Below, in pieces: positions 12,595 through 63,919 of a stretch of DNA of 64,000 nt. This DNA comes from an uncultured bacterium (lineage in GTDB: Bacteria; DRYD01): assembly GCA_937139605.1 (NCBI GenBank), contig CAKZQG010000037.1, positions 1 to 64,000 on the forward strand. Direction: 5' to 3'. Each line of letters opens with the position of its first letter. The first letter of the stretch is position 1. The notes under the pieces are model-generated. The model saw nothing but the letters and a program-made list of their open reading frames with translations. It had not been told where the DNA came from and did no database searches. The translations under genes were made by a program, and so were the position numbers.

Positions 12595-12670
12595 ACCGCC
12601 TGCAGACTATAAGGCTAACGTGGCGGAATAAAAATAAGTCTGCCAAAAGTGTATAAGAATATACACTTTT
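12595..12670 (+). promoter_or_regulatory. 5'-leader pseudoknot copy 1 plus attached hairpin
   Basis: Stem 1 is CCGCC (12596-12600) with GGCGG (12622-12626). Stem 2 is GCAGACT (12602-12608) with AGTCTGC (12637-12643). Linkers are L1 1 nt, L2 13 nt and L3 AATAAAAATA (12627-12636), giving an H-type pseudoknot. One base later comes a perfect 11-bp hairpin (12645-12655 with 12660-12670, loop AGAA) followed by GTTTATT, which is terminator-like. A TATACT box at 12574-12579 could place the RNA start just upstream. It precedes the secreted TPR gene at 12688. See the family finding. Confidence 0.7.
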
Positions 12671-12687
12671 GTTTATTAGGGTTTCTG

Positions 12688-14094
12688 ATGAATTTCAATA
12701 AAAAAAACATCTTAAAAAAATATTTTCTTTATTTTGTTTTAGTTTTTTTAGTAATTAGTTTGATATTAGTTTTTGCTAATGATTCTAAAATAGATTTGTT
12801 TAATAAATATATAGAAAATAAGGATTATGCCAAAGCAGAAGAAATTATAAAAGAAATTCAAAAAGAGTCTAAATTAGATGCTTTAATAGCAAAAATGATT
12901 TTATATGCTTATTTAGATAGTAATTTAGATAACTCTAAAAAAGTTTTAAAAATTTTAAAAGAGCAATTTGTTGATAATATTTCTAATGAAAACCAAAAAA
13001 ATCTTAATTTTTCTAAAATTTTATATAATTGGGGATATATTTTGTATAATGTAAAAAAGGATATTTATCAAAGTGAAAATATTTTTAATGAAGCTTTAAA
13101 ATATAATCCTAATAATATTGATGCTATTATTTTTTTAGCAAAAATAAATTATGATAAAAATAATTTAGATAATTCTGAAAATTTATTATCTAAAGCCTAT
13201 GATTTAGCTTTATCTAAGAAATACTCTAATTTAGTTAATTTAATTTCTATTTATACGGATGTTCTTATTGAAAATAAGAGATATTCTAAGGCAAAAAATA
13301 TATTAGAAAATTACTATACTAAAGATAATAAATTACTTTTAAAATATGCCAAGGTATTAGTTTATTTAGATGAATTAGTTCAAGCTAATGAGATTATAAA
13401 AGAGTATATAAAAAAAGATAGTAATAATTTAGAAGCTTATTATATTTTAGGATTAACTTATAAAAAGAGTTATGTTAAGATTCCAGAAGCATTAGATTTT
13501 ATTAATTCTATTAATGTAGATAAAAACGATAGATATTATATTAAATTAGCACAATTTTATGAAGGAGTTAATGATGTAGATATGGCTTTAAATTATTACG
13601 ATAAAGCTTTAGCTATCAATAAAGAAAATAGAAAATATTATATTTTAGCTATTACCTATGCTATAGATATTGGGAAAACTAATAGAGCTATTAATTGGGC
13701 TTATGAATTTTATAATCAAAATCAAAATGATTTTTATGGGCCCTATTTGTTAGCCATTTGTTATGATGAAGCTAAGTTATTTGATAAAGCTAAAGAATTT
13801 TATTATAAAGCTATTGCTATTAAACCTGATACTTATGAACCTTATGTTAGGTTAAGTAGAATATTTTTAGAAGAAGAAACTGATTTTGATTCTTCTATTA
13901 AAATATTAATTCAAGGATATAATAATATTGGTGATTTATATTATAAAAATAGATTTAAAAAAGCTATAAAGGATTTAATTGATTTAGAAAAGGAATTTAA
14001 GAAGAAATATAAAGAAAAAACGGGTTTAGATATTTCAAAGCCTATAAAAAAAGAAACATTAAAAGAAGTAGAAAAAATTATTTATTCTAATTAA
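12688..14094 (+). CDS. Secreted or anchored TPR-repeat protein
   Basis: A 468-residue protein starting MNFNKKNILKKYF, with a hydrophobic segment at residues about 12-32 (LVFLVISLILVFA) that is a signal peptide or anchor, then many TPR units (for example YYDKALAINKENRKYYILA and FYYKAIAIKPDTYEPYVRL). I start it at ATG 12688. A GTG at 12649 would add 13 residues but lies inside the leader hairpin, while the ATG has a weak AGGG six bases upstream. Partner and function are unknown. The leader pseudoknot implies post-transcriptional or attenuation control. Confidence 0.8.
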   Translation: MNFNKKNILKKYFLYFVLVFLVISLILVFANDSKIDLFNKYIENKDYAKAEEIIKEIQKESKLDALIAKMILYAYLDSNLDNSKKVLKILKEQFVDNISNENQKNLNFSKILYNWGYILYNVKKDIYQSENIFNEALKYNPNNIDAIIFLAKINYDKNNLDNSENLLSKAYDLALSKKYSNLVNLISIYTDVLIENKRYSKAKNILENYYTKDNKLLLKYAKVLVYLDELVQANEIIKEYIKKDSNNLEAYYILGLTYKKSYVKIPEALDFINSINVDKNDRYYIKLAQFYEGVNDVDMALNYYDKALAINKENRKYYILAITYAIDIGKTNRAINWAYEFYNQNQNDFYGPYLLAICYDEAKLFDKAKEFYYKAIAIKPDTYEPYVRLSRIFLEEETDFDSSIKILIQGYNNIGDLYYKNRFKKAIKDLIDLEKEFKKKYKEKTGLDISKPIKKETLKEVEKIIYSN

Positions 14095-14277
14095 AAACTT
14101 TAATTAAATATTTTAACAAAAAAAAGAAATATATATCTTTTGGCCATTACTTAATTAATTCTACATATATTGAAATTAAGTTAAAGGGAAAAAATGAAAA
14201 TAGTTAAACTTTCTAAACTAATAACTAACTAAAAGCACAAGATTTTTTTTAAGACAAAATGGTATTTTAAAAAATTT

Positions 14278-14497
14278 ATGCATTGCTCATATTGTGAAAA
14301 TAAGCACATTTGGGCTCCTAAACTTTTTGAGCTTGAAGTTCTTGTATTTGGAATTTTGGAAAAGGGAAGGAAAAGTAGAAGTTGAAATAGTAAATGCTGA
14401 AACCACCCTAAAAGAAGCGATAAAAAAATTCGGGAGAGAAGTTCAATATACACTTATAAATTCAAAAGTATTACTTAGGTATCAAAAAATTGACTAA
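14278..14497 (+). pseudogene. Small frameshifted ORF with a CxxC start
   Basis: Two overlapping frames look protein-like in series. From ATG 14278 the frame reads MHCSYCENKHIWAPKLF and on to LEKGRK, stopping at 14383-14385. The +1 frame then continues KVEVEIVNAETTLKEAIKK to a stop at 14495-14497. Joined near 14360-14375, in the A/G run AAAAGGGAAGGAAAAG, they give about 72 residues with a Cys-x2-Cys. The amino-acid mix is unlike the Ile/Leu/Phe-rich noise of random frames here, and the DNA is less AT-rich than its flanks. It could be a decayed gene, a sequencing error or programmed frameshifting. No family recognised; no Shine-Dalgarno site. Confidence 0.4.
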
Positions 14498-14839
14498 AAA
14501 TAAATGTTTTCTAATTGTAGGTTTTGTATAAATGAGTTATTAGGTTTTGGAGTTATGTGAAAAAGGTTATTAAGGTATCATAGAAGGATGAGGAATAAAT
14601 TAAGCAATCACCTCTTTTTATATATGAATTGATATTTACAAAATACCAGTTTGTGTATATAATATTTTTAAAATATTTTTTGCTGATTTAATGAGCATTA
14701 AGAATAAAAATCTTTAGAAACTAATCTTTTAAATGGCTAATTTTGAAAATTACTGGGAAGCTAAAACTTAATAAGTTGGTTAGTTTGAATAATATAAGAA
14801 GGGAATTTTTAAGTAATATAGAATATTATAAATAGGTAG
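14498..14839. other. 342-bp gap before tRNA-Met
   Basis: No supported ORF on either strand. It contains one good promoter candidate (14635-14663) and an AT-only near-palindrome just after it. The segment between that promoter and the tRNA (about 170 bases) is either a tRNA precursor leader or an unrecognised small RNA; I see no known RNA motif. Confidence 0.5.
14635..14663 (+). promoter_or_regulatory. Candidate sigma-A promoter upstream of tRNA-Met
   Basis: TTTACA at 14635-14640, exactly 17 bp, TATAAT at 14658-14663. The expected start is near 14670, so the transcript would run about 170 bases before the tRNA. Confidence 0.5.
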
Positions 14840-14911
14840 CGCGGGATGGAGCAGTGGCAGCTCGTTGGGCTCATAACCCAAAGGTCGTGGGTTCGAATCC
14901 CACTCCCGCAA
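14840..14911 (+). tRNA. Initiator tRNA-fMet (CAT)
   Basis: A 72-nt cloverleaf. The acceptor 5' strand CGCGGGA pairs with TCCCGCA except for the first position, a C1-A72 mismatch that is the bacterial initiator hallmark. The anticodon loop is CTCATAA (CAT), and the anticodon stem carries the three G-C pairs (GGG/CCC) of initiators. The T-arm is GTGGG-TTCGAAT-CCCAC and the discriminator is A. The 3' CCA is not encoded. Confidence 0.97.
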
Positions 14912-15030
14912 CTCTTTTAATTTAGTTCTTATTCTTTCACAAAATTCAAGGCATAAGAGTATTCATTATTTTTTAATTATTTTTTATTATTTTGTATATA
15001 AAATTAATAAATTTAAAAATTAACAAAAAA

Positions 15031-15059
15031 TTAACATTAAAAACTGATTAAAATATAAT
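15031..15059 (+). promoter_or_regulatory. Candidate sigma-A promoter for the gene at 15130
   Basis: TTAACA at 15031-15036, 17-bp spacer, TATAAT at 15054-15059. The start would be near 15066, giving a leader of about 64 nt that ends in the Shine-Dalgarno site AAGAGGTG. Confidence 0.55.
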
Positions 15060-15129
15060 AAAAAGGGAATATTAATAATAGATAGAAATTTATATTATAA
15101 AGAAAAAGTAATAAGAGGTGAAAATAGTA

Positions 15130-16152
15130 ATGAAGAATATAAATAAAATCTTAACAATAATAATAATATTCTGTTTGGTTAGCATTAGTTTAATGAGTTT
15201 TTCATATTCTCAAGTTATAAGTGGAAAGTTTGTTAGATTTGGAGTAGATACTGTAGTAGTTAAAACAGATAGTGAAATATTAAATTTGCCCATTTCTAAA
15301 AACTTAAAAGTAGTTGATATGAATGGAAATATAATTAATGCTGCTTCATTATACGAAGGTGCTGATATAACTCTAAATTATAATAATGGGTATGTTTCTT
15401 CTATTAGTGTTGACAATTTTAGTTTAGTTAATCAAAATATTAATAACAATAAACCAGAATATCAAATACTACTTAAAAATTATCAAAATACCCCTAATTA
15501 TTCAAATAATAATTATAATATCCCCGTTAAAGTATCTTATGTTGGGTATTTGCCAGTTGATTATCAATATATTTATGGTTATAAAATAGGATCAAACGAT
15601 ATTAGTTATCCTTATTATAATTATACTCCTGTTACTAATTATGGATATGCTTCATATGAGTTAAAATTGTATAAAGATTACTTAGCATATGATAATATGA
15701 TGCTAACTAACTATCCTTCTAATAGAATATATTATGAACTAAAGTCATCGGAATTAAATAATAATGTTCCTAATTATTATTATTTAGCACAATTTCAACC
15801 AAAATACCTAGAAAATCCTAATAAAAATAATATCCCAAATAATGATTCATATTTAGCTAATTTAAATAACATGACTAATTTAAATAATAATCAAATTAAT
15901 AATTCTTCTTTAATTTATGGTAAGCTACTTACCATAGATAATAACAAAATAAATATTTATACTTATGATAATAATAATTTAGCTTTAAAAATTGATGAAA
16001 CTACAAATATTTTTGTTAAAAAAGAAGGGAAATATATATTATTAAATAATAAAACTGCATTAAATGAAGTTTTAAATAAAAATGTACAAGTATCAATAAG
16101 AAATTATAATGGCCAATTAGTCGCTGATACTATTATAATACAAAATCAATAA
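15130..16152 (+). CDS. Secreted Asn/Tyr-rich protein, unknown function
   Basis: A 340-residue protein with an N-terminal signal peptide (ILTIIIIFCLVSISLM, probable cleavage near SYS-Q). The mature part has two similar beta-rich segments flanking a Tyr/Asn/Pro-rich middle. Residues about 30-90 (GKFVRFGVDTVVVKTD) and the last 80 residues (YGKLLTIDNNKINIYTYD) resemble small DUF5666-like repeats, which is a tentative likeness. I start at ATG 15130, nine bases after AAGAGGTG; the GTG at 15118 lies inside that ribosome-binding site. Probably a surface or periplasmic protein. Confidence 0.7.
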   Translation: MKNINKILTIIIIFCLVSISLMSFSYSQVISGKFVRFGVDTVVVKTDSEILNLPISKNLKVVDMNGNIINAASLYEGADITLNYNNGYVSSISVDNFSLVNQNINNNKPEYQILLKNYQNTPNYSNNNYNIPVKVSYVGYLPVDYQYIYGYKIGSNDISYPYYNYTPVTNYGYASYELKLYKDYLAYDNMMLTNYPSNRIYYELKSSELNNNVPNYYYLAQFQPKYLENPNKNNIPNNDSYLANLNNMTNLNNNQINNSSLIYGKLLTIDNNKINIYTYDNNNLALKIDETTNIFVKKEGKYILLNNKTALNEVLNKNVQVSIRNYNGQLVADTIIIQNQ

Positions 16153-16190
16153 AAATAATAACTAAAATAAAAATATTACTAAAAATAATA

Positions 16191-16721
16191 ATGAATGATA
16201 ACCAGAATTATTTAGAGATTGTTGATAATATATTAAAAAAAATAAATCAATCTTCAATTAATCAATTTGAAATTAATAATAACGATTTCTATTTAAAAAT
16301 TAAAATTAATAAACTAAAAAATGAAAATAATTTAAGAAATACTAATTTAAAAAGTAAGCCTAAAAATAAAAATGAAATTATTGTTTCTGATAATGAAAAT
16401 AATAAGAAAAGTGATTTAGAAGATTTTAAAGAAAGAATAGAAGATGGATATAAGTTAGTTTTTTACGAAGAAAATAATGAAAAATTTGTTGATATTATTT
16501 CTACTTTAGTTGGGAAATTCTATTTTGCTAATAATAAGAATTTAAATATAACTAAGGGAGCAATAGTAAAAGCTAATACTATTTTAGGATATATAGAAAT
16601 TTTAAATATATCTTATTATATCAAGCTTGATTTTAATGCAGAAATAATTGAGGATTATACGGAAAATTTACCCTTCGTTCAGTATTCTTCTAAGCTTTTA
16701 AAATTGAAAGTATTATCTTAA
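16191..16721 (+). CDS. Biotin carboxyl carrier protein-like (AccB-like), biotinyl lysine missing
   Basis: A 176-residue protein laid out like AccB. It has an N-terminal helix and strand (IVDNILKKINQ ... FYLKIKI), a charged linker of about 50 residues, and a C-terminal lipoyl/biotinyl-type fold starting DIISTLVGKFY (AccB: SPMVGTFY) and running through KGAIVKANTILGYIEIL. Where AccB has the biotinylated EAMK, this protein has EILN (residues 136-139), so the acceptor Lys is Asn139. It cannot be biotinylated at the normal site. No acetyl-CoA carboxylase gene adjoins; the next gene, 24 bp on, is an RseP-type protease. It may be a decayed or repurposed carrier domain. There is no Shine-Dalgarno site. 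Confidence 0.7.
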   Translation: MNDNQNYLEIVDNILKKINQSSINQFEINNNDFYLKIKINKLKNENNLRNTNLKSKPKNKNEIIVSDNENNKKSDLEDFKERIEDGYKLVFYEENNEKFVDIISTLVGKFYFANNKNLNITKGAIVKANTILGYIEILNISYYIKLDFNAEIIEDYTENLPFVQYSSKLLKLKVLS

Positions 16722-16745
16722 TAATATATTTAAGGAGGAATTAAA

Positions 16746-17879
16746 ATGGAATTACTTACTAATATATTTTTTAATATTTTTTATATTTTACTAGTAGTTT
16801 TTGCTTTCTTTTTTATTATATTATTTCATGAATATGGGCATTATTTAGGATGTAAAATAACAGGAGTTAAAGTAGAAGAGTTCTCCATAGGATTAGGTAA
16901 AGAATTATGGTCTAAGGTTATAAATGGAACTAAATATAGTTTTAGATTATTACCCTTAGGGGGGTATGTTTTACCTGAAGGAGAAAATTATGATCCTAAT
17001 AATGTAAGCCCAACTAATTTCTATTCTAAACCCTTATATTCAAGGTTCTTAATTATATTTTTAGGACCTTTTTTTAATTATATATTAGCATTTTTCATAT
17101 TTTTTATACTTTTTTCATTTTTTAATCCTACAATAACTACGGAAGTTTTTATGGTAAAACCCGATACACCTGCATATTCGTATTTAAAAACTGGAGATGT
17201 AATTTTACAAGTAGATAATCTAATTTTAAATTATAAAGATGGCCAAAAGATGATTGATTATATCCATAATGCTAAAGATAAAGAAATATATGTAAAAGTA
17301 AAGAGAGGAAACGAAATAAAGGAATTTAAAATAAAAACTTTATGGGATAAAGTGAATAATTTTGCTTATATTGGATTCAACCCTAAATCAAAGGTATTTT
17401 TTGAAATAGATTTTTTAAGAGGATTTTATAAATCTATAACTACTATCTATGATGTAACCGTTAAATACTTAAATGTTATATTAAGTATATTTACAGGGCA
17501 TATTCCATTAAAGACAGTTTATGAGCAAAGTGCAGGACCTATAGGAATAACTAAAATTATGTATGATTTTGCTACTCAGGGGATATATGATTATCTTATG
17601 TTGGTTGGATTAATTAACGTAATAATAGGATTATTTAATTTATTTCCTTTTCCTGCCTTGGATGGTGGAAGATTACTTTTTATTATTATAAATTATATCT
17701 TAATTGGAATTTCCTTATTATTGAAGAAAATTGGATTATATACAAGAAATATTGTTATAACCCCTGATAAGGAAGAAATATTTCATAAAGTAGGGTTAAT
17801 TGTTTTATTAGTATTTGTAGTTTTTGTTTCTTTTAATGATGTAGGTAGGATTATAAGAGGGGAAAGCTTTATAAAGTAA
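16746..17879 (+). CDS. rseP: Site-2 intramembrane metalloprotease, RseP family
   Basis: A 377-residue M50 protease that cleaves membrane-bound regulators within the bilayer. The zinc motif HEYGH lies at residues 28-32 in the first transmembrane helix. A single PDZ-like domain follows (about 130-200, with AYSYLKTGDVILQVDN), and the second active-site motif NLFPFPALDGGRLLF is near residue 300. The C-terminal helices complete the fold. A strong AAGGAGG lies at 16731-16737. Candidate substrates nearby are not obvious; the zinc-finger protein at 42718 is a possible anti-sigma target by analogy only. tRNA-Leu follows 26 bp downstream. Confidence 0.92.
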   Translation: MELLTNIFFNIFYILLVVFAFFFIILFHEYGHYLGCKITGVKVEEFSIGLGKELWSKVINGTKYSFRLLPLGGYVLPEGENYDPNNVSPTNFYSKPLYSRFLIIFLGPFFNYILAFFIFFILFSFFNPTITTEVFMVKPDTPAYSYLKTGDVILQVDNLILNYKDGQKMIDYIHNAKDKEIYVKVKRGNEIKEFKIKTLWDKVNNFAYIGFNPKSKVFFEIDFLRGFYKSITTIYDVTVKYLNVILSIFTGHIPLKTVYEQSAGPIGITKIMYDFATQGIYDYLMLVGLINVIIGLFNLFPFPALDGGRLLFIIINYILIGISLLLKKIGLYTRNIVITPDKEEIFHKVGLIVLLVFVVFVSFNDVGRIIRGESFIK

Positions 17880-17905
17880 AATAAGTATAATAAAAGGAAG
17901 AATAA

Positions 17906-17992
17906 GCCGGAGTGGCGGAATTGGCAGACGCAGGAGACTCAAAATCTCCCGCCTTATTACAAGGCGTGCGGGTTCGAGTCCCGCCTCCGGCA
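17906..17992 (+). tRNA. tRNA-Leu (CAA)
   Basis: An 87-nt class II tRNA. Acceptor GCCGGAG pairs with CTCCGGC, the anticodon stem-loop is GGAGA-CTCAAAA-TCTCC (CAA, reading TTG), the long variable arm is CCGCCTTATTACAAGGCGT, and the T-arm is GCGGG-TTCGAGT-CCCGC. The discriminator is A. CCA is not encoded. Confidence 0.97.
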
Positions 17993-18012
17993 TCCTTAAA
18001 ATAAAATTAAAA

Positions 18013-18095
18013 TTTAGCGTTCTTAAATACCGCCTGCTGGGTTTAAAGAACGCTAAAATAATTATACAAATTAAGGCGGTATATAAATAGCCCAG
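18013..18095 (+). promoter_or_regulatory. 5'-leader pseudoknot copy 2, with an interlocked hairpin
   Basis: Stem 1 is ATACCGCC (18027-18034) with GGCGGTAT (18075-18082), 8 bp. Stem 2 is CTGGG (18037-18041) with CCCAG (18091-18095), extendable by TT/AG. L3 after the GGCGG core is TATATAAATAG. In addition, 18013-18024 pairs perfectly with 18046-18057 (12 bp), with three more pairs inside after a bulged A, placing both 5' strands of the pseudoknot in a 14-nt loop. The hairpin and pseudoknot are therefore either exclusive (a switch) or a triple-crossing fold. The gene at 18116 starts 20 bases later without a Shine-Dalgarno site. Confidence 0.7.
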
Positions 18096-18115
18096 TATAT
18101 TATATTAAATTAATT

Positions 18116-18661
18116 ATGAAGCTAAAAAAAGTTAAAATTTATCAATTAGCTACTGATATTGTTACTGATGATGCGGTTGTAATATTAAAAGATGAAGAAA
18201 ACAAAAATATTCTACCAATAGTAATAGGACATTTTGAAGCATCTAGTATCGCTATAGCTTTGGAAAAACTTAAAATAGAAAGACCAATGACGCACGATTT
18301 GATTAAAAATATCTTTGATACTTTAGAAGTAAATGTTGAAAAAATTGTTATAACAGAACTAAAAGGATCCACTTATTACGCTAAAATATACCTGAATTAT
18401 AAAGATAAAACTTATGAAATAGATGCAAGGCCTAGTGATAGTATAGCTATTGCTGTTAGAACTAACGCACCTATCTATGTTAATGAAAACTTATTGGAAA
18501 ATGTCCCAATTGTTGAATATACTGAAAAAAATAATGAAGTTAAAAGTATTTCTAATTTACCAGAAGATGAAGAAAAGCAAAGGTTTAAACAGTTCTTGGA
18601 TAAAATCAAACCTACTGATTTCCTTAAATACTTTAAAGAAGAAGGAGAAGATAAAGAGTAA
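18116..18661 (+). CDS. Bifunctional nuclease family protein (DUF151/BFN)
   Basis: A 181-residue protein with the BFN domain: VVILKDEENKNILPIVIGHF, then SIAIALEKLKIERPMTHDLI and YEIDARPSDSIAIAVRTNAP, all diagnostic blocks of this family. BFN proteins have been reported as DNases/RNases; their cellular role in bacteria is not settled. A C-terminal acidic tail (about 50 residues) is common in the family. The ATG has no Shine-Dalgarno site but directly follows leader pseudoknot copy 2. The MTA phosphorylase gene follows after 37 bp. Confidence 0.9.
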   Translation: MKLKKVKIYQLATDIVTDDAVVILKDEENKNILPIVIGHFEASSIAIALEKLKIERPMTHDLIKNIFDTLEVNVEKIVITELKGSTYYAKIYLNYKDKTYEIDARPSDSIAIAVRTNAPIYVNENLLENVPIVEYTEKNNEVKSISNLPEDEEKQRFKQFLDKIKPTDFLKYFKEEGEDKE

Positions 18662-18698
18662 TTAATTAAACAGTAATTAATAGAAAGGAGAAATTAAA

Positions 18699-19526
18699 AT
18701 GGAAAAAGCTTTTAAAGCTGATATAGGGGTAATAGGAGGTACTGGATTTTATTCATTTTTAGATTCAGTTGAAATAAGTATAGAAACACCCTATGGACCT
18801 ACTTCTGATAAAATAGCAATTGCAGAAATAGATTCTAAGAAAGTTGCTTTTATCCCTAGGCATGGTAAAGATCATAGATATCCTCCTTCTTTTGTACCTT
18901 ATAAAGCTAATATCTGGGCATTAAAAAAATTAGGAGTTAGATTTATTTTAAGCCCTTGTGCTGCAGGATCTTTACAACCTCATATAAAACCTGGTGATAT
19001 TGTTGTATTAGATCAGATATTTGATAGAACTACTAAAAGATCTAATTCATTTTATGAAGGGCCAGTTACTACTCACGTATCTTTTGCTTATCCTTACTCT
19101 GAATATCTTAGAAAAATTATAATAAAAGAAGCTCAAAGATTAGATTTATCTTTCCATCCAAAAGGCACAGTTGTTGTAATAGAAGGACCGAGATTTTCTA
19201 CAAAAGCTGAAAGTAGATATTATACTAAAATGGGATTTGAAGTTATAAATATGACTCAGATGCCTGAAGCTATTCTAGCAAGAGAATTAGAAATAGCTTT
19301 TGCTGGGATCGCTTTAATTACTGATTATGACGTGGGTTTAGAAGATGAGCCATCTATTGAACCCGTTTCTCATGAGTTAGCTGTCCAAAATTTTATTAAA
19401 AACCAAGAAAAATTAAAAAATCTCTTAATTAATGTTATTAAAAACATTGATATAAATTATCGCGATGAAGCTCATTCTTCTCTTAAAAATGCACGTTTCA
19501 CTCAAAATGTCGTTAATTTATTCTAA
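18699..19526 (+). CDS. mtnP: S-methyl-5'-thioadenosine phosphorylase
   Basis: A 275-residue purine nucleoside phosphorylase of the MTAP class, which splits methylthioadenosine into adenine and methylthioribose-1-phosphate in methionine salvage. Visible motifs are IGGTGFYSF at the start (phosphate site), PRHGKDHRYPPS, SPCAAGSLQPHIKPGD, EGPRFSTKAESR (the phosphate/ribose motif) and INMTQMPEAILARE with TDYD for base recognition. A clear GAAAGGAG site precedes the ATG. The enzyme might prefer 5'-methylthioinosine; the sequence alone does not decide. Confidence 0.93.
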   Translation: MEKAFKADIGVIGGTGFYSFLDSVEISIETPYGPTSDKIAIAEIDSKKVAFIPRHGKDHRYPPSFVPYKANIWALKKLGVRFILSPCAAGSLQPHIKPGDIVVLDQIFDRTTKRSNSFYEGPVTTHVSFAYPYSEYLRKIIIKEAQRLDLSFHPKGTVVVIEGPRFSTKAESRYYTKMGFEVINMTQMPEAILARELEIAFAGIALITDYDVGLEDEPSIEPVSHELAVQNFIKNQEKLKNLLINVIKNIDINYRDEAHSSLKNARFTQNVVNLF

Positions 19527-19558
19527 AGCTCCTTAAGTTATTATAAATTAATAAACTA

Positions 19559-20593
19559 ATGCTTTCAAGAGACGAAAAAATAGATATACTTAGAGGAATT
19601 GCTATTTTTTTTATGATTTTAGCTAATTTTAGCCCATATTTTATAGATAATCCCCCATTTGTATTCAGATTCTTATACACCTTGGCGGCTCCCATCTTTA
19701 TTTTATTATCTAATTTTATGATTACCTATAACCATTATTTTAAAAATTATAACTATTCTTACTATTTTAAAAGAGGATTATATATAATATTCTGGGCTAT
19801 ATTTATCGATAGTATCATATATAGAATCTTCCCTTTTTGTTCTTTTGATGTTTTATATCTTATCGGATTTAGTATTATTGTTAATAGCTTATTTTTTAAA
19901 TTATCTCATTTTCTTATATTTATTATTTCTAATGCTATTTTTATAATAACTCCTTTTTTACAAATTAAATATGGATATATTGATTTACCTATTGAAGCTA
20001 AGTTATTTGATTTATCTTTTTTTAAATTTGTATTAGTAAATTATTCTTTAAAGCATTTTTTAATAGATGGCTATTTCCCTATTTTCCCTTTCCTTGGAAT
20101 TGCCTTAATGGGTATTTTTTTCTTTAATTTATATTACAATAAAAGAGATATTTTTTTTAATAAGTACTTTTTTATTTTTATATTTTTCGTTTTTTTAATC
20201 TTGAGTATAAGATTATATAATATTAAAGATATTTTAATAATAAGGGATGGATATGCTGAATTATTTTATCCCCCTACTTTAGATTTTATCTACTGGAGCT
20301 TAAGCTTAATTTTTTTACTTTTTTATATTTTACTTAATTTACCCAATTCTCTTTATGCTAATGATAAGCTTTTGTCTTTTTTTAATAAATTAGGAAAACA
20401 TTCTCTATTTATTTATGTTTTCCATTTATTCTTTGCTGAATATATCTTTACTTTTATTGAAAAATATTTTAATATTTATAATACTAACTATAGCTTGTTT
20501 TTACTTATTATATTTTATATTTTGTTTTTATTAATATTAAACTATGTAATTAATTTAATTGAAAAACAAAAGACTGTTTATAATTTTAAATAA
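19559..20593 (+). CDS. Membrane acyltransferase-like protein (DUF1624/HGSNAT type)
   Basis: A 344-residue polytopic membrane protein with about nine or ten hydrophobic helices. The N-terminal block RDEKIDILRGIAIFFMILAN is the hallmark of the DUF1624 / heparan-alpha-glucosaminide N-acetyltransferase group, distant relatives of acyltransferase-3 enzymes that acetylate sugars across the membrane. A C-terminal GKHSLFIYVFH segment supports this. It lies 32 bp after mtnP without a Shine-Dalgarno site. The substrate is unknown; cell-surface glycan modification is likely by family. Confidence 0.8.
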   Translation: MLSRDEKIDILRGIAIFFMILANFSPYFIDNPPFVFRFLYTLAAPIFILLSNFMITYNHYFKNYNYSYYFKRGLYIIFWAIFIDSIIYRIFPFCSFDVLYLIGFSIIVNSLFFKLSHFLIFIISNAIFIITPFLQIKYGYIDLPIEAKLFDLSFFKFVLVNYSLKHFLIDGYFPIFPFLGIALMGIFFFNLYYNKRDIFFNKYFFIFIFFVFLILSIRLYNIKDILIIRDGYAELFYPPTLDFIYWSLSLIFLLFYILLNLPNSLYANDKLLSFFNKLGKHSLFIYVFHLFFAEYIFTFIEKYFNIYNTNYSLFLLIIFYILFLLILNYVINLIEKQKTVYNFK

Positions 20594-20734
20594 ATTAAAC
20601 TATCTTAGAAATACTAGCTTTATAATTGAAATTAATTGAGAACTAAATCTTTCTTAAATCAATTGTAAGATTTTTCTACCAAATGAGTTTATTTTTTTAG
20701 CATTCAATTAAGTAGTTTAGATTTATGATCCTTA

Positions 20735-21292: not shown

Positions 21293-21327
21293 GTTTATTT
21301 ATCTTTAATTAACATTTATTAACTTTA

Positions 21328-22734: not shown

Positions 22735-22778
22735 ACCTTTTATTGTTTGCTTATTAAATGAATTATTAATGGAGATAT

Positions 22779-23039: not shown

Positions 23040-23085
23040 AAATTATTATATTTTGAATTTATTAATTTATTTTTAAATTTATTTT

Positions 23086-51064: not shown

Positions 51065-51081
51065 TAATTAAAAAAAATTAT

Positions 51082-52665: not shown

Positions 52666-52670
52666 TTTAT

Positions 52671-53366: not shown

Positions 53367-53375
53367 ACATCCCCT

Positions 53376-53888: not shown

Positions 53889-54106
53889 AGAATTACTGTA
53901 CTTATAGAAGTGGAGAGAGATTTTATTGGAATTTATATTTTATAATTCCTTCTATATTCTACATAGGTAGTAAAAAAACATCTACTTAGTTATTTTTAAT
54001 TGTGTAGTATTTAAGAGACTATATTTTATTTTTTTCAGAAATCTTTGAAAAATAATAGTTTTCTTGCAGCAAGATAATAAATAAATTTTAGTAGATAATA
54101 AATAAG

Positions 54107-55096: not shown

Positions 55097-55152
55097 CCTA
55101 TTATTATTTTATAAATTCGTTAAATTTTATCCTTTAGTTAATTGTATTTTTT

Positions 55153-55743: not shown

Positions 55744-55744
55744 T

Positions 55745-56203: not shown

Positions 56204-56205
56204 AA

Positions 56206-56871: not shown

Positions 56872-57313
56872 TTCTATTTACTAATTCATTAAAATTTAGT
56901 AATAATATACTTACTCCAGATATAATTAGATCTAATTGATTAATAATTTCATTTATTTTTTGCTTTTGTATTTTTAGTAAATTTTGTTTATAATTGTATC
57001 CAATTTTTGAGTAATTTAAATTTAATATATCCTGGATATTATTTAAAATTGTTAATAAATTATTGATAATTGTGTAAAATAAATTTATATTTTCAAAATA
57101 AATTTCGTCAATATTATTTTTAAATACAAAAGTGCCTTGGTAATAAATATTTAAATAATCTGTTATTGGCTTTAGAAGTTCATTATAATTTTCAATTAAA
57201 TTTTCAATATTATTATTAACTTCCTTTATATTAGATATATTTATATCTTCTAAATTAATTAAATCATATAATGAGTTTCTTAATTTTTCAAAAGATTTTA
57301 AAAAAGAATCCAT
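56843..57313 (-). CDS. Unknown helical protein, 156 aa
   Basis: A 156-residue, all-helical protein, rich in Asn, Ile and Leu (for example NNIENLIENYNELLKPITDY, IQKQKINEIINQLDLIISG). No Cys, no signal, no recognised domain. The length and helical layout resemble flagellar chaperones or export cofactors (FliS/FlgN-like) only in general form; FliH lies 2 kb away. It overlaps the next gene by 29 bp, which implies translational coupling. Confidence 0.5.
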   Translation of the reverse strand: MDSFLKSFEKLRNSLYDLINLEDINISNIKEVNNNIENLIENYNELLKPITDYLNIYYQGTFVFKNNIDEIYFENINLFYTIINNLLTILNNIQDILNLNYSKIGYNYKQNLLKIQKQKINEIINQLDLIISGVSILLLNFNELVNRNEEIYKTQS

Positions 57314-57346
57314 TTATTTTGATTTTAAATTTTTTAATCTTTTATT

Positions 57347-58642
57347 TTAGTTTTGGATTATAGAGATAGTTTTATAAGCTTGAGAATAATAGTTTAGATT
57401 ATAGAAATTATATATTCTAAGGAGTTCATTATATTTAGAGTTTCTTTCACTTCTTGCTGGTGCACCACTTTTTATAAAATAAGAATTATTAACTGCTATA
57501 TGTGATATGGTATTGTCTTCAGTTTCTCCCGATCTATGAGATATAATTGTTTTATATCCATTAGCATTAGCTAAGGAGATTGCTTTTATAGTTTCACTTA
57601 AAGTTCCTATTTGGTTTAATTTAATTAAAACAGCATTAGCTATGTTATTATTTATTCCTTTTTCTATTCTTTCTATATTTGTTACGAATAAATCGTCCCC
57701 TACTATTAGGATTTTGCTTTTATATTTATTAGTAAATTCCTTCCAAGAATCCCAATCATTTTCATCAAACGGATCTTCTATTGAAAATATTGGATAATTT
57801 AAAATTAGTTTTTCATAAATATTCATTAATTCTTTATAATCTACAGGATTTTTTGAGTAGATATATTTATTATTTTTAAAGAATGAACTAGCTGCTACAT
57901 CTAAAGAAATAAAGAAATCTTTACCAGCTTTGTATCCTGTTTTTTCTATAGCGGTTATTATGAATTCACAAGCTTTAAAAGGAGAATCTATTTTGGGAGC
58001 AAAACCTCCTTCGTCTCCTACACTTGTACTTAAACCATTTTCTTTTAATATTTTCTTTAAAGTATTATAAACTTCACTACTTGCTTTTATAGCATTTGAA
58101 AAATTATCAAATCCTAAGGGAACTATCATAAACTCTTGGAAATCTAAGTCATTATCTGCATGTACTCCACCATTTATAATATTCATCATTGGAACTGGTA
58201 AATAATAATCATAACTTTTAGTCCAGAAGGATAAATACTTAAAAAAGGGTATGTCATAGGATTTAGCTACTGCTTTAGCTATGGCTACTGATACTCCTAA
58301 AATAGCATTTGCTCCTAAATTAGATTTATTTTTACTTCCATCTAATTCTATTAATTTCCTATCTACTTCAAATATATCATCTACATATGTATTGAAAAGA
58401 TGATCTAAAATAAATGATACATTTTTAATAGCTTTACTAACTCCTTTACCATGAAAATCTTTTTCATTATCTCTTAGTTCTAAAGCTTCGAATTCTCCAG
58501 TAGATGCTCCTGAAGGTACAATAAAGCTATCAATATATATGTTCCCTTTTCTTTGAACGTATGCAAAAACTTCTAATGTAGGATTTGATCTGCTATCTAG
58601 TACCCATATAGCTTTTAAATCTTTTAAAACTGGTCTAAACAT
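57347..58642 (-). CDS. eno: Enolase
   Basis: A 431-residue glycolytic enzyme converting 2-phosphoglycerate to phosphoenolpyruvate. Signatures: WVLDSRSNPTLEV, PSGASTGEFEALELRD, INGGVHADNDLDFQEFMIVP, SVGDEGGFAPKI, the catalytic Lys in LIKLNQIGTLSETI and SHRSGETEDN. The length is normal. It lies between a sigma factor gene and two unknown genes, all on the minus strand. A short AGGTGA site precedes the start. Confidence 0.97.
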   Translation of the reverse strand: MFRPVLKDLKAIWVLDSRSNPTLEVFAYVQRKGNIYIDSFIVPSGASTGEFEALELRDNEKDFHGKGVSKAIKNVSFILDHLFNTYVDDIFEVDRKLIELDGSKNKSNLGANAILGVSVAIAKAVAKSYDIPFFKYLSFWTKSYDYYLPVPMMNIINGGVHADNDLDFQEFMIVPLGFDNFSNAIKASSEVYNTLKKILKENGLSTSVGDEGGFAPKIDSPFKACEFIITAIEKTGYKAGKDFFISLDVAASSFFKNNKYIYSKNPVDYKELMNIYEKLILNYPIFSIEDPFDENDWDSWKEFTNKYKSKILIVGDDLFVTNIERIEKGINNNIANAVLIKLNQIGTLSETIKAISLANANGYKTIISHRSGETEDNTISHIAVNNSYFIKSGAPARSERNSKYNELLRIYNFYNLNYYSQAYKTISIIQN

Positions 58643-58667
58643 TAATTATCACCTACCATTTTTTTTA

Positions 58668-59798
58668 TTATTTATTAAATAATTCAATGATATCTTTTGG
58701 AATATGTTTTTTCAACTTAGCTAAGGATTTATTTATTAGTTGTCTTATTCTTTCTTTGGAAAGTTTTTTACCATAAACTGTAAAATATAATTCACTTAAT
58801 TCATTTAAATTAAGTGGTCTTTTATCAAGGATTCCAAATGAAGAAACTATTAATAATTTTTCTTCATCTTCTAAATAAGTATTAATATATTCTAATATTT
58901 TAGATTTTAGAAATGATTTATTATATAAATTTTCGGGGCCTTCTTCTACTTTATTTTCTATATAATCCTCTACTGTCCTGCCACTATCACTATACTTTAC
59001 ATCTTGTAGAGATATCTCTATTTTATAATTACTTAATTTTAATATTTTAGAATATTTGGTAACTAATTCTTTTATTTTAGCTTTGTATCTTTTCTTAAAT
59101 ATCTGATCATTTGGAGTGATATTTTCCTCTTGTAATAATTCTTTGGTTATAGAATCTTTGTAAAGGTATTCTATTGCTTCTTCTAAAGATATTTTTCTAT
59201 TATATTTATTTTCTAAATAATTTATAGTTTTTACTATTTTTTGATGTTCTGCGTATATAGATAGTGGGACTTTTAATGGATTATCGTGGTTATAATTAGT
59301 TTTAAATAATGAATGATAGATCCAATAAGTTGCATATGTAGAGAATCTGACATTATAGCTTAAATCGAATCTTTCTATAGCTTCTAAAGCAGCTGCTATA
59401 CCTTCTGATATATACTCTGAATATTCTAAATTTTTCCCAATTAAACTTTTATATATTTTTATTATAAATGGAAAAATAATGGATATTAATAATATTTTGG
59501 CTTGAAAATTTCCTTCTTTGGCATCTTTTATTATTTCTTGCTCTAGTTCTAAAGGTATATTTTTAAAGCGTTGATAATTATCTATTAACCAATTATAGCT
59601 ACTAAATGAACCTATTTTTAATTTTTTATATATTTCTTCTTTTGTTGTTATTAGATTTTTAGAATCTGTATTTATATTAAAAATATCTTCTTCTTTATTT
59701 ATATCTTCTAATAATTTTACTAATGGATCTTTTTTTAATTTTTTTGAAGATTTATTTTTTAAATCTTTAATTTCTTTAGTTTTATTATTTTTATCCAT
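58668..59798 (-). CDS. Sigma-70 family RNA polymerase sigma factor (RpoD-like, divergent)
   Basis: A 376-residue sigma factor. After about 70 charged residues, region 2 appears (YISEGIAAALEAIERFDLSY, VRFSTYATYWIYHSLFKTN), then region 3 (VPLSIYAEHQKIVKTINYLE, containing a RpoD-like linker) and region 4 (LEDEEKLLIVSSFGILDKRP, then LSKERIRQLINKSLAKLKK). It lacks region 1.1, and the region-4 start RxxxVlxxRfG is altered. This suggests an alternative (group 2 or 3) sigma or a strongly diverged primary sigma. Genes controlled are unknown. Confidence 0.85.
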   Translation of the reverse strand: MDKNNKTKEIKDLKNKSSKKLKKDPLVKLLEDINKEEDIFNINTDSKNLITTKEEIYKKLKIGSFSSYNWLIDNYQRFKNIPLELEQEIIKDAKEGNFQAKILLISIIFPFIIKIYKSLIGKNLEYSEYISEGIAAALEAIERFDLSYNVRFSTYATYWIYHSLFKTNYNHDNPLKVPLSIYAEHQKIVKTINYLENKYNRKISLEEAIEYLYKDSITKELLQEENITPNDQIFKKRYKAKIKELVTKYSKILKLSNYKIEISLQDVKYSDSGRTVEDYIENKVEEGPENLYNKSFLKSKILEYINTYLEDEEKLLIVSSFGILDKRPLNLNELSELYFTVYGKKLSKERIRQLINKSLAKLKKHIPKDIIELFNK

Positions 59799-59863
59799 AT
59801 TCCTATTTTATTATTTATTCCTTTTGATTTAAAAACCTTCTATTAATTTTAAAGATACTTATT

Positions 59864-61183
59864 TTAAAAATTTAGCAATTCTTCTATATTTTTTATTATT
59901 AAATTTATTTGATCTAACGAAAATTCCTTTTGCTTTCCATTTTTTAAATCTTTTACTTGAAATACATTTTTTTCTATTTCATAATCTCCTATAAATATGA
60001 TATAATTTATATCCATGGCATTTGCTTTTTTTAAAGCAGATTTTAAACTACTTTCTATACTAAAATAAAATGAATATCTTTCTTTTAAGTTATTTATATA
60101 ATTATTAACATTCTGGAAAATATTTAATAAGTATTTAAATATATTGATATTTTGATTATTATGTATTATAGTGAATAAAATTTTAACAGGACTAAGGAGC
60201 TTTGTTATATTAGAATTGTAATTATTAATAAAAATAGTTAATCTTTCTAATCCTCCGGCAAAACCACAACCTGCTATGTTATAACTACTATCTATAAAAT
60301 TAGCTAAATAATCATATCTACCTCCCCCAGCTAAATCTATTATATTATTATCTAATATCGCTTTAACTTCAAAAACTGTTCTATTATAATAATCTAAACC
60401 TCTTACTAAATAATTATCTAAAATAAAATCTATGTTATTCATTGTTAATAAGTTTAATAAATTATCAAAATGATTTTTACATTCTAAACATAAGTAATCA
60501 ATAGATTTAGGAGCATTTATAGAGATATTTTTACAAGTAAGGTTTTTACAATCTAAAATCCTTAGTACATTAATATCTAATCTTTTTTGACAATCTTGAC
60601 ATAAATCGTTTTTATAATTAATAAAGTATTCATATAATTTTTTCTTATAGGTTGGTCTACATAGATTGCAACCTATTGAGTTAATATGTATTTTAAATTC
60701 TATATTTTTGATATTAAATTTATTAAAAATATAATTATAAAGGTTTTGAGTTAAGAAAATTATTTCAAAATCAGCTAAAAATGATAAGTTCCCTAAGTAT
60801 TCTATACCGAATTGAGTAGCTTGCCTATATCTTCCTAGTTGTGGTCTTTCATACCTAAATATTGGCCCTATATAATAAAATTTAAGGTAATTATTGTTAT
60901 ATAACTTGTTTTGAATAACGGCTCTTACAACTGATGCAGTTAATTCAGGTCTTAAAACTAAGTCCCTCCCTTTTTTATCTTTGAATTCATACATTTCTTT
61001 TAATACTATATCACTACTTTCTCCAACACTCCTTTTAAAAAGCTCTATTTTCTCAAATATTGGAGTTTCTATTAAATTATATCCAAAAACTTTAAGATAT
61101 TCTGAAATTGTATATATTATTTTTTCACGTAAAATGCTTTCAAAAGGAATAAAATCGTTAGTACCTCTTGGTCTTTCTATCAT
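59864..61183 (-). CDS. hisS: Histidyl-tRNA synthetase
   Basis: A 439-residue class II synthetase charging tRNA-His. Motif 1 region begins RPRGTNDFIP, motif 2 is RYERPQLGRYRQATQFGIEYLG, quoted here in parts RYERPQLGRYRQ and FGIEYLG, and the HisA motif is LVRGLDYYNRTVFEV. A Cys-rich insert (CNLC, CQDC, DCKNLTC, CLEC) marks the Zn-binding variant found in many anaerobes. The C-terminal anticodon domain follows. The expected order is normal; no aspS neighbour. Confidence 0.96.
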   Translation of the reverse strand: MIERPRGTNDFIPFESILREKIIYTISEYLKVFGYNLIETPIFEKIELFKRSVGESSDIVLKEMYEFKDKKGRDLVLRPELTASVVRAVIQNKLYNNNYLKFYYIGPIFRYERPQLGRYRQATQFGIEYLGNLSFLADFEIIFLTQNLYNYIFNKFNIKNIEFKIHINSIGCNLCRPTYKKKLYEYFINYKNDLCQDCQKRLDINVLRILDCKNLTCKNISINAPKSIDYLCLECKNHFDNLLNLLTMNNIDFILDNYLVRGLDYYNRTVFEVKAILDNNIIDLAGGGRYDYLANFIDSSYNIAGCGFAGGLERLTIFINNYNSNITKLLSPVKILFTIIHNNQNINIFKYLLNIFQNVNNYINNLKERYSFYFSIESSLKSALKKANAMDINYIIFIGDYEIEKNVFQVKDLKNGKQKEFSLDQINLIIKNIEELLNF

Positions 61184-61207
61184 ATCTATAATTCTTTAGT
61201 ATAGTTT

Positions 61208-62530
61208 TTAATTATTTAATAATATTCCTTCTAATCCCCATAGATAACTATTAGTTATTTTTACTTTAACAAATTGACCTATTAAATCTTTATCGGTTTT
61301 ATCAAATATAACTATTTTATTAGTTTCTGTTCTTCCTTCAAGTTTGTTAGGATTTTTATCACTAGGACCTTCTACTAAGATTTCCACTACTTTATTTATG
61401 TATTCCTTATTTTTTTGGATTGTTATTTCATTTTGTACTGATATTAATTCATATAGTCTTTTTAATCTTTCTTTTAGTGGGAGTTGTGGGTAAGTTGCAG
61501 CTTTAGTACCTTCTCTTTCACTATAAGCAAACATAAATGCTTGATCAAATTTCACTTCTTTTACTACTTTTAAGGTGTCTTGAAATTGCTCATCTGTTTC
61601 GTAAGGGAAACCTACAATTATATCAGTAGATAAAGCGATATTTGGACATAGTTCCCTGAATTTATAAACTACTTCTAAAAATTGGGAAACTGTATATCTT
61701 CTTGCCATTTTCCTTAAAATCTCATCATTCCCACTTTGTAGGGGTAGATGTACATGTTTTGCTATTTTATCAATTGAACAGATAGTTTTTATTTGTTTAT
61801 CATTAAAGTTAGTGGGGTAAGGGGAGGTAAATCTTATCCATTTTATACCATCTATTAAGGATACATCATAAAGTAGATCAGCAAAATCATAAGAGTTTTT
61901 AAGATCTATTCCGTAAGCATTAACAGTTTGGCCTAATAATATTATTTCTACGTAATTTTTTAAAGCCAATTCTTTTATTTCTTTAATGATTTCGTCTTTA
62001 GGTCTTGATTGCATTTTGCCTCTTGTAAATGGCACTATACAAAAAGTACAATAATAATCACAACCAAACATAATAGGCACATATGCTGAGAATTTAGATA
62101 ATCTTCTTGGAGGGATATCGGGTTCAGTTCTCCCTGTAAAATCTACATCTACTATTTTCTTATTTTTGTTATATTTAAGTTCTTGTAGAATCGTAGGTAA
62201 TTGAGATATCCTATGAGTTCCTAAGACTATATCTACATGCTCTATGTTTGAGATTTTTAAATAATCCTTTTGAGCTAGGCAACCAGTTATGATTACTATC
62301 ATATCCTTTTTTTCATTTTTAATTTTTTTGAGAGCTCCTAAGCGACCATAGAATTTATCTTCTGCATTTTTTCTTACTGCGCAAGTATTAAAAATAACGA
62401 TATCAGCATCCGCTTCGTTATCTACACTATTTGCTCCAAATTTCTCTAGTATTCCTGCTATTAATTCGCTATCATATTCATTAGCTTGGCATCCATAAGT
62501 TTTTATAAAATATTTATACCCATTTAACAT
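61208..62530 (-). CDS. miaB: tRNA-2-methylthio-N6-dimethylallyladenosine synthase MiaB
   Basis: A 440-residue radical SAM methylthiotransferase. The N-terminal UPF0004 domain has three cluster Cys (YGCQANEYDSE, NTCAVRKNAEDK, GCLAQKDY). The radical SAM motif is CDYYCTFC followed by IVPFTRGKMQSRP, and a TRAM domain ends the protein. This is the MiaB subclass (ms2i6A in tRNA), not RimO or MtaB, judged from GCQANEYDS and TFCIVPFTRG. The ATG lies 24 bp upstream of hisS on the minus strand. Confidence 0.94.
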   Translation of the reverse strand: MLNGYKYFIKTYGCQANEYDSELIAGILEKFGANSVDNEADADIVIFNTCAVRKNAEDKFYGRLGALKKIKNEKKDMIVIITGCLAQKDYLKISNIEHVDIVLGTHRISQLPTILQELKYNKNKKIVDVDFTGRTEPDIPPRRLSKFSAYVPIMFGCDYYCTFCIVPFTRGKMQSRPKDEIIKEIKELALKNYVEIILLGQTVNAYGIDLKNSYDFADLLYDVSLIDGIKWIRFTSPYPTNFNDKQIKTICSIDKIAKHVHLPLQSGNDEILRKMARRYTVSQFLEVVYKFRELCPNIALSTDIIVGFPYETDEQFQDTLKVVKEVKFDQAFMFAYSEREGTKAATYPQLPLKERLKRLYELISVQNEITIQKNKEYINKVVEILVEGPSDKNPNKLEGRTETNKIVIFDKTDKDLIGQFVKVKITNSYLWGLEGILLNN

Positions 62531-62666
62531 AATTCTAACTCACCTGTGTTTTAGTTTTAGTTTTTATATACAATAAATTTACTTCTATTATTTATTATTC
62601 TATAAATTTAATTGTTAAACCTTTAGTTTTTTGATAGGAAATTACTAAAGAGGAGGTATTTAGATT

Positions 62667-62702
62667 TTGTTTAATTCTATAAAAAGGGGGAAAAATATAT
62701 GA
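62667..62702 (+). CDS. Possible 11-residue coupled leader ORF
   Basis: GAGGAGGT (62650-62657) precedes a TTG that opens an 11-codon frame (MFNSIKRGKNI) whose TGA overlaps the ATG of the next gene (62699), a layout for translational coupling. The next gene has its own AAGGGGG. Could be chance. Confidence 0.25.
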   Translation: MFNSIKRGKNI

Positions 62703-63145
62703 ATTTAAAAGAAGAAATAGAAATAAATGCTAATCAAGATACGGTTTTTCAAGTTATGTTGGATTTAGAAAGGTTCCCGGAATTTATGGAAGATGTAAAA
62801 AGAATAACTATTTTGGAAAAAGACGGGAATAGAAGAGTAAGTGAATGGGAAGCTGAAATAGATGGACTCGTTTTTAAATGGCAAGAAGAAGATATCTATT
62901 ATCCTCAAGATTATAAATTAACTTATAAATTAATTAAGGGAGATTTAGATAAATTTGAAGGTTATTGGGAGATAATTAGATTATCTGATAATAAATCTAA
63001 GTTAGTGTTATTTTTGGATTTTGATTTAAATATTCCTACATTAAAGAGTTTGATAATGCCTACTATAAAGTTCAAAGTAAAAAAGAATCTAGCATTAATG
63101 TTAAGAGCTATAAAGTCAAGAGCAGAAAGTTTAACTTTAGCTTGA
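62699..63145 (+). CDS. SRPBCC-superfamily (polyketide cyclase / COQ10-like) protein
   Basis: A 148-residue single-domain START-like fold. EEIEINANQDTVFQVMLDLE (start helix and strand), FPEFMEDVKRITILEKDGNR and a final amphipathic helix fit the SRPBCC/COQ10 group, which binds hydrophobic ligands such as quinones or lipids. A strong AAAAAGGGGG precedes the ATG. It is divergent from miaB and upstream of the atpH leader. The ligand is unknown. Confidence 0.8.
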   Translation: MNLKEEIEINANQDTVFQVMLDLERFPEFMEDVKRITILEKDGNRRVSEWEAEIDGLVFKWQEEDIYYPQDYKLTYKLIKGDLDKFEGYWEIIRLSDNKSKLVLFLDFDLNIPTLKSLIMPTIKFKVKKNLALMLRAIKSRAESLTLA

Positions 63146-63178
63146 TTTTTTTATAATAAGAAAATTTCATAAAATAAA

Positions 63179-63262
63179 TACCGCCAACAGGGGGATGATT
63201 ACAAAAATAAAAGGCGGAATATAAATACCCCTGTTCAAAGTGTAGATTTTTTATACGCTTTG
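63179..63262 (+). promoter_or_regulatory. 5'-leader pseudoknot copy 3 plus attached hairpin
   Basis: Stem 1 is CCGCC (63181-63185) with GGCGG (63213-63217). Stem 2 is ACAGGGG (63187-63193, extendable to AACAGGGG) with CCCCTGT (63228-63234, or to 63235). L1 is 0-1 nt, L3 is AATATAAATA (63218-63227). Directly after stem 2 comes a hairpin CAAAGTGTA (63236-63244) / TACGCTTTG (63254-63262) with one G-T pair. A TATAAT at 63152-63157 with TTTAAC 16 bp before it may be the promoter. It precedes atpH by 14 nt. Confidence 0.75.
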
Positions 63263-63276
63263 ATTTATAAACTATT

Positions 63277-63864
63277 ATGTTAGCTCTAGCTAATAGATAC
63301 GCGGATTCTTTGTTTGAAATAGCTTCTAAATATAAATTAGAAGAAACTATATTAAAAGAATTAGAAACTTTTTTTAATTTAATAAATAAAGATAAAGAAA
63401 TTAATGAAATATGGCATTCTAAGAGTTTAACTACTTTTGAAAAATCTAAAATGCTATTAGATTTATTACCTTTTAATTCTATTACTAAAGAATTCTTAAA
63501 ACTATTAGCTTCTAAAAAACGAGAAAAATTACTACATCTTATTATTTATTATTATAAAAAAAATTATGAGGTTAAATATGGAATATTTGAGGCTGATTTG
63601 GTACTAGCTAAACAAACTGATAACTTAGTTATAAATGAATTATTAAGAAGTATTGAAAAAAACATAAATAAAAAAGTAGTTATAAATGATATAAAAATAG
63701 ATCCTGAGATTATGGGAGGATTTATTTTGATAAGTGATGATACTATTTTGGATTATTCTATAAAAAATAGTTTCCAAAAGTTAATAAAAGAAATAAATAT
63801 TAATATAGAGAAGTTTTTAGTTAAATCAAATTTATTTAATCAAATTAATTATAATTTAAATTAA
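63277..63864 (+). CDS. atpH: ATP synthase F1 subunit delta
   Basis: A 195-residue OSCP/delta subunit. LALANRYADSLFEIA at the start and, near the end, DPEIMGGFILISDDTILDYS are the two diagnostic blocks. The ATG has no Shine-Dalgarno site and follows the hairpin of leader copy 3. In nearly all bacteria atpA follows atpH; here rplQ follows instead, and atpF is not upstream, so the ATP synthase operon is broken up. Confidence 0.92.
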   Translation: MLALANRYADSLFEIASKYKLEETILKELETFFNLINKDKEINEIWHSKSLTTFEKSKMLLDLLPFNSITKEFLKLLASKKREKLLHLIIYYYKKNYEVKYGIFEADLVLAKQTDNLVINELLRSIEKNINKKVVINDIKIDPEIMGGFILISDDTILDYSIKNSFQKLIKEININIEKFLVKSNLFNQINYNLN

Positions 63865-63881
63865 TAAATTTATAAATATAT

Positions 63882-63919
63882 TTCCGCTTATTCTGGGAGC
63901 GGAATATAAATTTCCAGAA
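63882..63919 (+). promoter_or_regulatory. 5'-leader pseudoknot copy 4 (most compact)
   Basis: Stem 1 is TTCCGCT (63882-63888) with AGCGGAA (63898-63904). Stem 2 is TTCTGG (63891-63896) with CCAGAA (63914-63919). L1 is TA (2 nt), L2 is G (1 nt), and L3 is TATAAATTT, which after the AGCGG core reads AATATAAATTT. This is a textbook H-type pseudoknot. It ends 24 bases before the rplQ start and its AAGGAG site. A TATAAT at 63850-63855 lies just upstream. Confidence 0.75.

Follow-up and report, generated by a model that had tools for sequence, protein, structure and literature searches.

The 64,000-nt stretch of contig CAKZQG010000037.1 analysed here (the window), from an uncultured bacterium whose draft genome of 1.88 Mb is denoted G000, carries four copies of an RNA element placed shortly before the start codons of unrelated genes. 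Comparison of these copies with those of related genomes makes it secure that they belong to a new leader RNA family, H-type pseudoknots whose second stem shows real covariation. With somewhat better than even confidence, the element is read as a cis-acting, structure-led translation-start element. An earlier note on this DNA had guessed at an mRNA-stabilising or global regulatory role. Both ideas are retained as rivals, but translation initiation is named first because the distance to AUG is nearly constant, many copies stand inside operons, Shine-Dalgarno (SD) sequences are weak, and rpsA, the gene of ribosomal protein S1, appears to be absent.

Fold, covariation and spread of the family

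The element runs in the order CCGC-Y, loop L1, 5′ arm of stem 2, loop L2, R-GCGG, loop L3 as WAUANAAAU(A), and 3′ arm of stem 2. A pattern search of its own genome gave tens of further copies. Many more came from a covariance-model search of this genome and its relatives, as the earlier note had proposed. The model (R1) was built from 21 copies with stem 1 alone paired and is blind to stem 2; its seed contains the four window copies and is not independent of them, whereas the stem 2 pairing test is independent. E-values are rough and all genomes are drafts.

Pairing of stem 2 was assessed against a control in which 3′ arms were swapped between copies. A stem 2 score of at least 12 was reached by 111 of 119 copies outside class A (a set of near-identical cassettes described below), against 21.0±3.8 (maximum 35) after swapping. 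The test is positive in each genome alone (in G000, for instance, 20/21 against 4.9±1.7 swapped), so near-identical orthologues in G003 and G005 do not inflate the count. An alignment of 47 rows shows two-sided changes at all six stem 2 pairs, with 98.6% of cells pairing; since its rows were picked for pairing, the swap test is the clean one. The remainder of the element is nearly invariant. Stem 1 is CCGC/GCGG in 117 of the 119 copies, L3 positions 2, 3, 4, 6, 7, 8 and 9 are conserved at 89–100%, and an A occupies position −4 in 94%. The invariant A residues make minor-groove triplexes between L3 and stem 1 plausible. An extension of stem 1 through its flanking bases is not supported, as covariation at −1/+1 was not found.

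Where L2 is long, it often pairs with the 5′ flank as a third helix, P0; 16 copies have this helix, at a mean score of 15.9, compared with 8.2±1.3 swapped. P0 is present in the copy at 18027, in its G001 orthologue, in all three copies from a second phylum and in a phage copy. The predicted order P0-S1-S2-P0′-S1′-S2′ is a threefold interleaved knot. A few leaders keep stem 1 and L3 and miss a good stem 2, among them one before a cutA-like gene of G004 (L112) and one before atpB of G000 (L001); they are possibly decaying copies.

R1 matched 37 copies in G000 at about E≤0.01, and 20, 25, 21, 11 and 22 in the relatives G001 to G005, which share its family (f1). No copies were found by R1 in an order-mate, G006. 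In a set of 386 genomes from across the domain, R1 gave one strong outside match, G147. The second phylum holds single copies with the extra helix in G147, G409 and G399, preceding argG, the PDH E1-alpha gene (pdhA) and the acetyl-CoA synthase gene (acsB), respectively; the G409 copy has a sigma-70-like promoter just upstream. Such rarer copies are undercounted, since the searches covered some hundreds of distinct genomes. Matches in G008, G178, G202 and G243 were judged to be chance, with stem 2 or the leader context missing. A second model (R2), with stem 2 paired and L2 trimmed, missed the long-L2 forms and is excluded from the distribution counts.

No Rfam 15 family matches the element, which answers the overlap check suggested in the earlier note. 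At gathering score, the whole window yields three tRNAs and nothing else. Permissive scans (E≤10) of the copies at 12595 and in G147 returned unrelated families with scores far below gathering. The earlier exclusion of preQ1-I and SAM-II is upheld, as neither matched the window at gathering or the two copies at E≤10, and Rfam 15 likewise bears out that the element is not a known riboswitch or ribozyme. The preQ1-I and SAM-II riboswitches are themselves H-type pseudoknots with an A-rich L3 crossing stem 1. This likeness, together with the single copies before the metabolic genes argG, acsB and pdhA, would suit a riboswitch that senses a general metabolite or ion, its pocket formed from L3 and stem 1. 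That is quite improbable. Those riboswitches have conserved ligand pockets and serve genes of a single pathway, whereas here the stem 2 sequence is unconstrained and the genes are unrelated, with no pathway in common; stem 2 is not complementary to an SD, no terminator was seen, and all Rfam riboswitch models are silent.

Placement before the start codon

On predicted start codons, the last helix of the leader ends about 14–18 nt before AUG, with an outer range of about 9–24 nt. Among leaders outside class A, 84 have a short gap, with stem 2 lying 15.7±4.4 nt from AUG, and 29 have a longer one of 35.7±6.7 nt. In 24 of these 29, a hairpin starts 0–3 nt after stem 2 (shuffled, 1.9±1.2; maximum 6), and 13.4±1.8 nt then remain to AUG. 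The sequence of this hairpin varies from gene to gene. In element-free window genes, hairpins before AUG occur at chance (17/54 against 15.7±3.1). As far as predicted starts and folds can tell, what these leaders keep constant is the spacing between their last helix and the start codon, and this is the strongest functional clue.

The element is not solely a 5′-end or promoter element, since 78 of 136 copies begin no more than 60 nt after a codirectional open reading frame (ORF), the stop codon being at most 5 nt away in many of them. No fixed promoter-like motif was seen in the 60 nt ahead of the 119 copies, A(−4) apart; a promoter-like block is found in the class A cassettes alone. A stabiliser or processing element, its knot blocking exonucleases or marking a cleavage site so that mRNAs of downstream cistrons become stable, would account for a stable fold ahead of mostly core genes and for class A and G409 copies just after promoter-like sequences. 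It is nevertheless an improbable reading, as most copies are operon-internal and such an element needs neither a near-constant AUG distance nor hairpin insertions that preserve it.

The genes that follow are mostly core ones of unrelated function. By NCBIfam or Pfam, those of ribosomes and translation are rplQ, rpsD, rpsB, rpsO, rplE, rpmE, rpmF and frr, encoding the ribosomal proteins S2, S4, S15, L5, L17, L31 and L32 and the factor RRF. Others are tig (trigger factor), recA, acpP (ACP), an asnS-like gene, jag, atpB and atpH (ATP synthase), GAPDH, ppdK, ispH and genes for BFN and TPR proteins. For several of these the match stays under the curated cut-off, either through the divergence of the lineage or because the first 150 residues alone were scanned.

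Statistics on hairpin score, SD score and the base at −1 were chosen after seeing the data, and their p-values are for single tests. In a comparison of the element genes of G000 with the other genes of one window, a strong SD is found in 5 of 37 against 20 of 54 (Fisher p=0.017). In G000, 18 of 20 class-B genes have U at −1 of AUG; the other window genes have it in 25 of 54 cases (p=0.0006). When class-B element genes of G000 and G001 are taken together, 34 of 38 have this U (UAUG), against the same 25 of 54.

In the six family-f1 genomes, G000 to G005, rpsA was not detected with TIGR00717. The model found a single S1 domain there, in an ORF of about 700 residues (the PNPase in the window), and Pfam S1 found one further ORF of about 580 residues in three genomes. 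The order-mate G006 encodes a 375-residue, four-domain S1 and has no pseudoknots. The six drafts are 88.5, 87, 90, 83, 71 and 79% complete, and by our arithmetic rpsA would be missed six times through incompleteness alone with a probability of order 1e-5 if gaps are independent. The case for S1 absence in the family is strong but not final.

Several points weigh against a translation-start role. A rank test finds no significant SD difference in G000 (p=0.22), and a good SD is retained before some element genes (rplQ, and about 33% in genus g2). The choice of the first long ATG ORF as the gene biases the leaders towards short gaps. S1 loss, a single event in one clade, gives one evolutionary contrast, seen in drafts 71–90% complete. 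Of the outgroup genomes with a single copy, G147 and G399 have a multi-domain S1 and G409 shows none; with S1 in two of the three, its loss is not required. The dicistrovirus intergenic-region internal ribosome entry site (IGR IRES) resembles the element as a multi-pseudoknot RNA placing the ribosome at an internal start site, yet in E. coli it can do without its pseudoknots, and its activity depends on S1 (PMC9458429). The IGR IRES differs in being of viral origin, in its larger size and in having evolved to serve eukaryotic ribosomes, and in E. coli it is S1 and an SD-like element that act (PMC9458429). The present lineage shows the reverse, keeping the knots with S1 apparently gone.

A trans-acting protein is the main rival, because it too, as a repressor for instance, would need a fixed place near AUG. 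The element might be the binding site of a global RNA-binding repressor or activator, perhaps ribosomal or lineage-specific, which recognises stem 1 and L3 and controls initiation in trans while stem 2 merely holds the fold. An invariant stem 1, L3 and A(−4), next to a stem 2 of free sequence, resemble a surface for protein recognition, the place near AUG suits translational control, and many targets suit a global regulator, with rare single copies elsewhere. This reading is judged unlikely, though less so than the other rivals. Its target genes have unrelated core functions, a candidate protein was not identified, and weak SDs, U(−1) enrichment and S1 absence are not explained by it alone.

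Window copies, class A and the phage copy

The four window copies (Table 1) lie where the earlier note had placed them, at 12595, 18027, 63181 and 63882. Much of its description holds: stem 1 is CCGC/GCGG in all four, with a fifth pair of C-G, U-A or U-G; L3 is A/T-rich; and stem 2 differs in each copy and is paired in each. Its structural reading of a new leader RNA family with covarying stem 2 is strongly supported by the R1 copies and swap tests. The fixed spacing it reported applies to L3, at 9–11 nt, and not to L2, which ranges from 0 to 48 nt. The plain H-type architecture needs correction, as the copies at 12595 and 63181 have an additional hairpin and that at 18027 has helix P0. The first copy does precede a TPR gene, but the gene most likely starts at ATG 12688 and not at GTG 12649, because the hairpin covers 12644–12671.

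Table 1. Parts of the four window copies, neighbouring starts and class A cassettes (window coordinates)
Feature	Position	Strand	Sequence or remark
Copy 1 (class A), stem 1 5′ arm	12596..12600	+	CCGCC
Copy 1, stem 2 5′ arm	12602..12608	+	GCAGACT
Copy 1, stem 1 3′ arm	12622..12626	+	GGCGG
Copy 1, L3	12627..12636	+	AATAAAAATA
Copy 1, stem 2 3′ arm	12637..12643	+	AGTCTGC
Copy 1, hairpin	12644..12671	+	CAAAAGTGTATA/TATACACTTTTG; immediately 3′ of stem 2; 16 nt remain to ATG 12688
TPR-repeat protein gene	12688..14094	+	likely true start ATG 12688
Copy 2, P0 5′ arm	18013..18024	+	TTTAGCGTTCTT; partner 18046–18057
Copy 2, stem 1 5′ arm	18030..18034	+	CCGCC
Copy 2, stem 2 5′ arm	18037..18041	+	CTGGG
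Copy 2, P0 3′ arm	18046..18057	+	AAGAACGCTAAA
Copy 2, stem 1 3′ arm	18075..18079	+	GGCGG
Copy 2, L3	18080..18090	+	TATATAAATAG
Copy 2, stem 2 3′ arm	18091..18095	+	CCCAG; BFN-domain gene ATG 18116 20 nt downstream
Copy 3, stem 1 5′ arm	63181..63185	+	CCGCC
Copy 3, stem 2 5′ arm	63186..63193	+	AACAGGGG
Copy 3, stem 1 3′ arm	63213..63217	+	GGCGG
Copy 3, L3	63218..63227	+	AATATAAATA
Copy 3, stem 2 3′ arm	63228..63235	+	CCCCTGTT
Copy 3, hairpin	63236..63262	+	CAAAGTGTA/TACGCTTTG; 14 nt remain to atpH ATG 63277
Copy 4, stem 1 5′ arm	63884..63888	+	CCGCT
Copy 4, stem 2 5′ arm	63891..63897	+	TTCTGGG
Copy 4, stem 1 3′ arm	63898..63902	+	AGCGG
Copy 4, L3	63903..63911	+	AATATAAAT
Copy 4, stem 2 3′ arm	63913..63919	+	TCCAGAA; rplQ ATG 63943 23 nt downstream; SD AAGGAG present
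Class A cassettes	window 12480–12690; L006, L008, L009, L011, L016, L018, L019		
Class A cassettes, further	L020, L026, L027, L030, L033, L035, L036		

About 20 nt separate helix P0 of the BFN leader from an upstream tRNA gene that is leucine-type by its sequence (window 17906–18116). With so short a distance, the tRNA and the mRNA are probably cotranscribed.

The copy at 12595 belongs to class A, which consists of 16 near-identical promoter-plus-leader cassettes in G000, just before the start codons of unrelated genes. Their layout is TTGTGCTTGG..TATAATTAG..pseudoknot..hairpin..TTTTGTTAA. They resemble a mobile leader that has spread recently. Extended to the whole family, dispersed mobile or repetitive DNA with no RNA function could draw on these cassettes and on the phage copy, yet it is very improbable: the two arms of stem 2 change in step from copy to copy in six genomes, the AUG distance is held, and the 60 nt upstream of other copies share no common sequence, A(−4) apart. 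The mobile-DNA reading holds for class A alone and is contradicted for class B.

The phage copy is single and precedes a gene on a 172-kb contig (L246). It is the only real one of 13 viral pattern matches, the others having no stem 2, and a second viral scan returned it again and nothing else. A TnpB-like ORF, read from the sequence and with no Pfam match, occupies 2444–3823 of the contig and ends 56 nt before the copy; thyX lies upstream. An omega-RNA/TnpB link was considered and set aside, as the leader layout is the same as in copies with no TnpB-like neighbour and the ORF belongs to no Pfam family.

Known leader pseudoknots and a possible mechanism

Pseudoknots beside start codons have precedents in ribosomal protein mRNAs, namely the rpsO/S15 and alpha operon/S4 leaders, and the S15 and S4 genes of this lineage also carry the element. 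Those leaders are autogenous and serve one operon each, whereas here one element precedes dozens of unrelated genes. It is not restricted to ribosomal protein operons, being found also before recA, acpP, asnS-like, GAPDH, ppdK, ispH and other genes.

A closer functional parallel may be drawn with tisB of E. coli, where a 5′ pseudoknot of the mRNA is needed for 30S and S1 binding and for initiation, and where stem 2 was shown by compensatory mutation (PMC7708055). Here too a leader pseudoknot has its stem 2 under pairing selection (111/119 against 21±4 swapped). The tisB knot serves one gene, where it stands some 100 nt ahead of a sequestered ribosome-binding site, and acts through S1 (PMC7708055); the present element is a dispersed family about 13–18 nt before AUG, in six genomes with no detected rpsA.

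If the element does start translation, L3 would line the minor groove of stem 1 and give a stable knob. Recognition would be of shape plus stem 1 and L3, because any paired stem 2 is accepted. The knob may dock at, or abut, the 30S subunit on its mRNA exit side, which would put AUG near the P site. Such placement could compensate for weak SD pairing and missing S1. It would work within operons and near promoters alike, so that selected genes, most of them core, have an initiation site to themselves. More tentatively, and at rather less than even confidence, an S1-less lineage may have evolved a modular pseudoknot that recruits and positions the 30S subunit on selected mRNAs, or expanded it from a rare mobile form, sharing it with a phage and a second phylum; it would then be a structure-led ribosome-entry element natural to bacteria.

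It has long been asked how bacterial ribosomes choose start codons without an SD or S1. A recurring fold with a controlled AUG distance, present in dozens of variants per genome beside a knot-free order-mate that keeps S1, makes the question directly testable. If the translation-start reading is true, bacterial genes would have an initiation signal led by RNA structure, expression engineering would gain a small modular part, and the family would count as a new class at the level of Rfam. Under the rival readings too, it would be an undescribed RNA element on the scale of a regulon.

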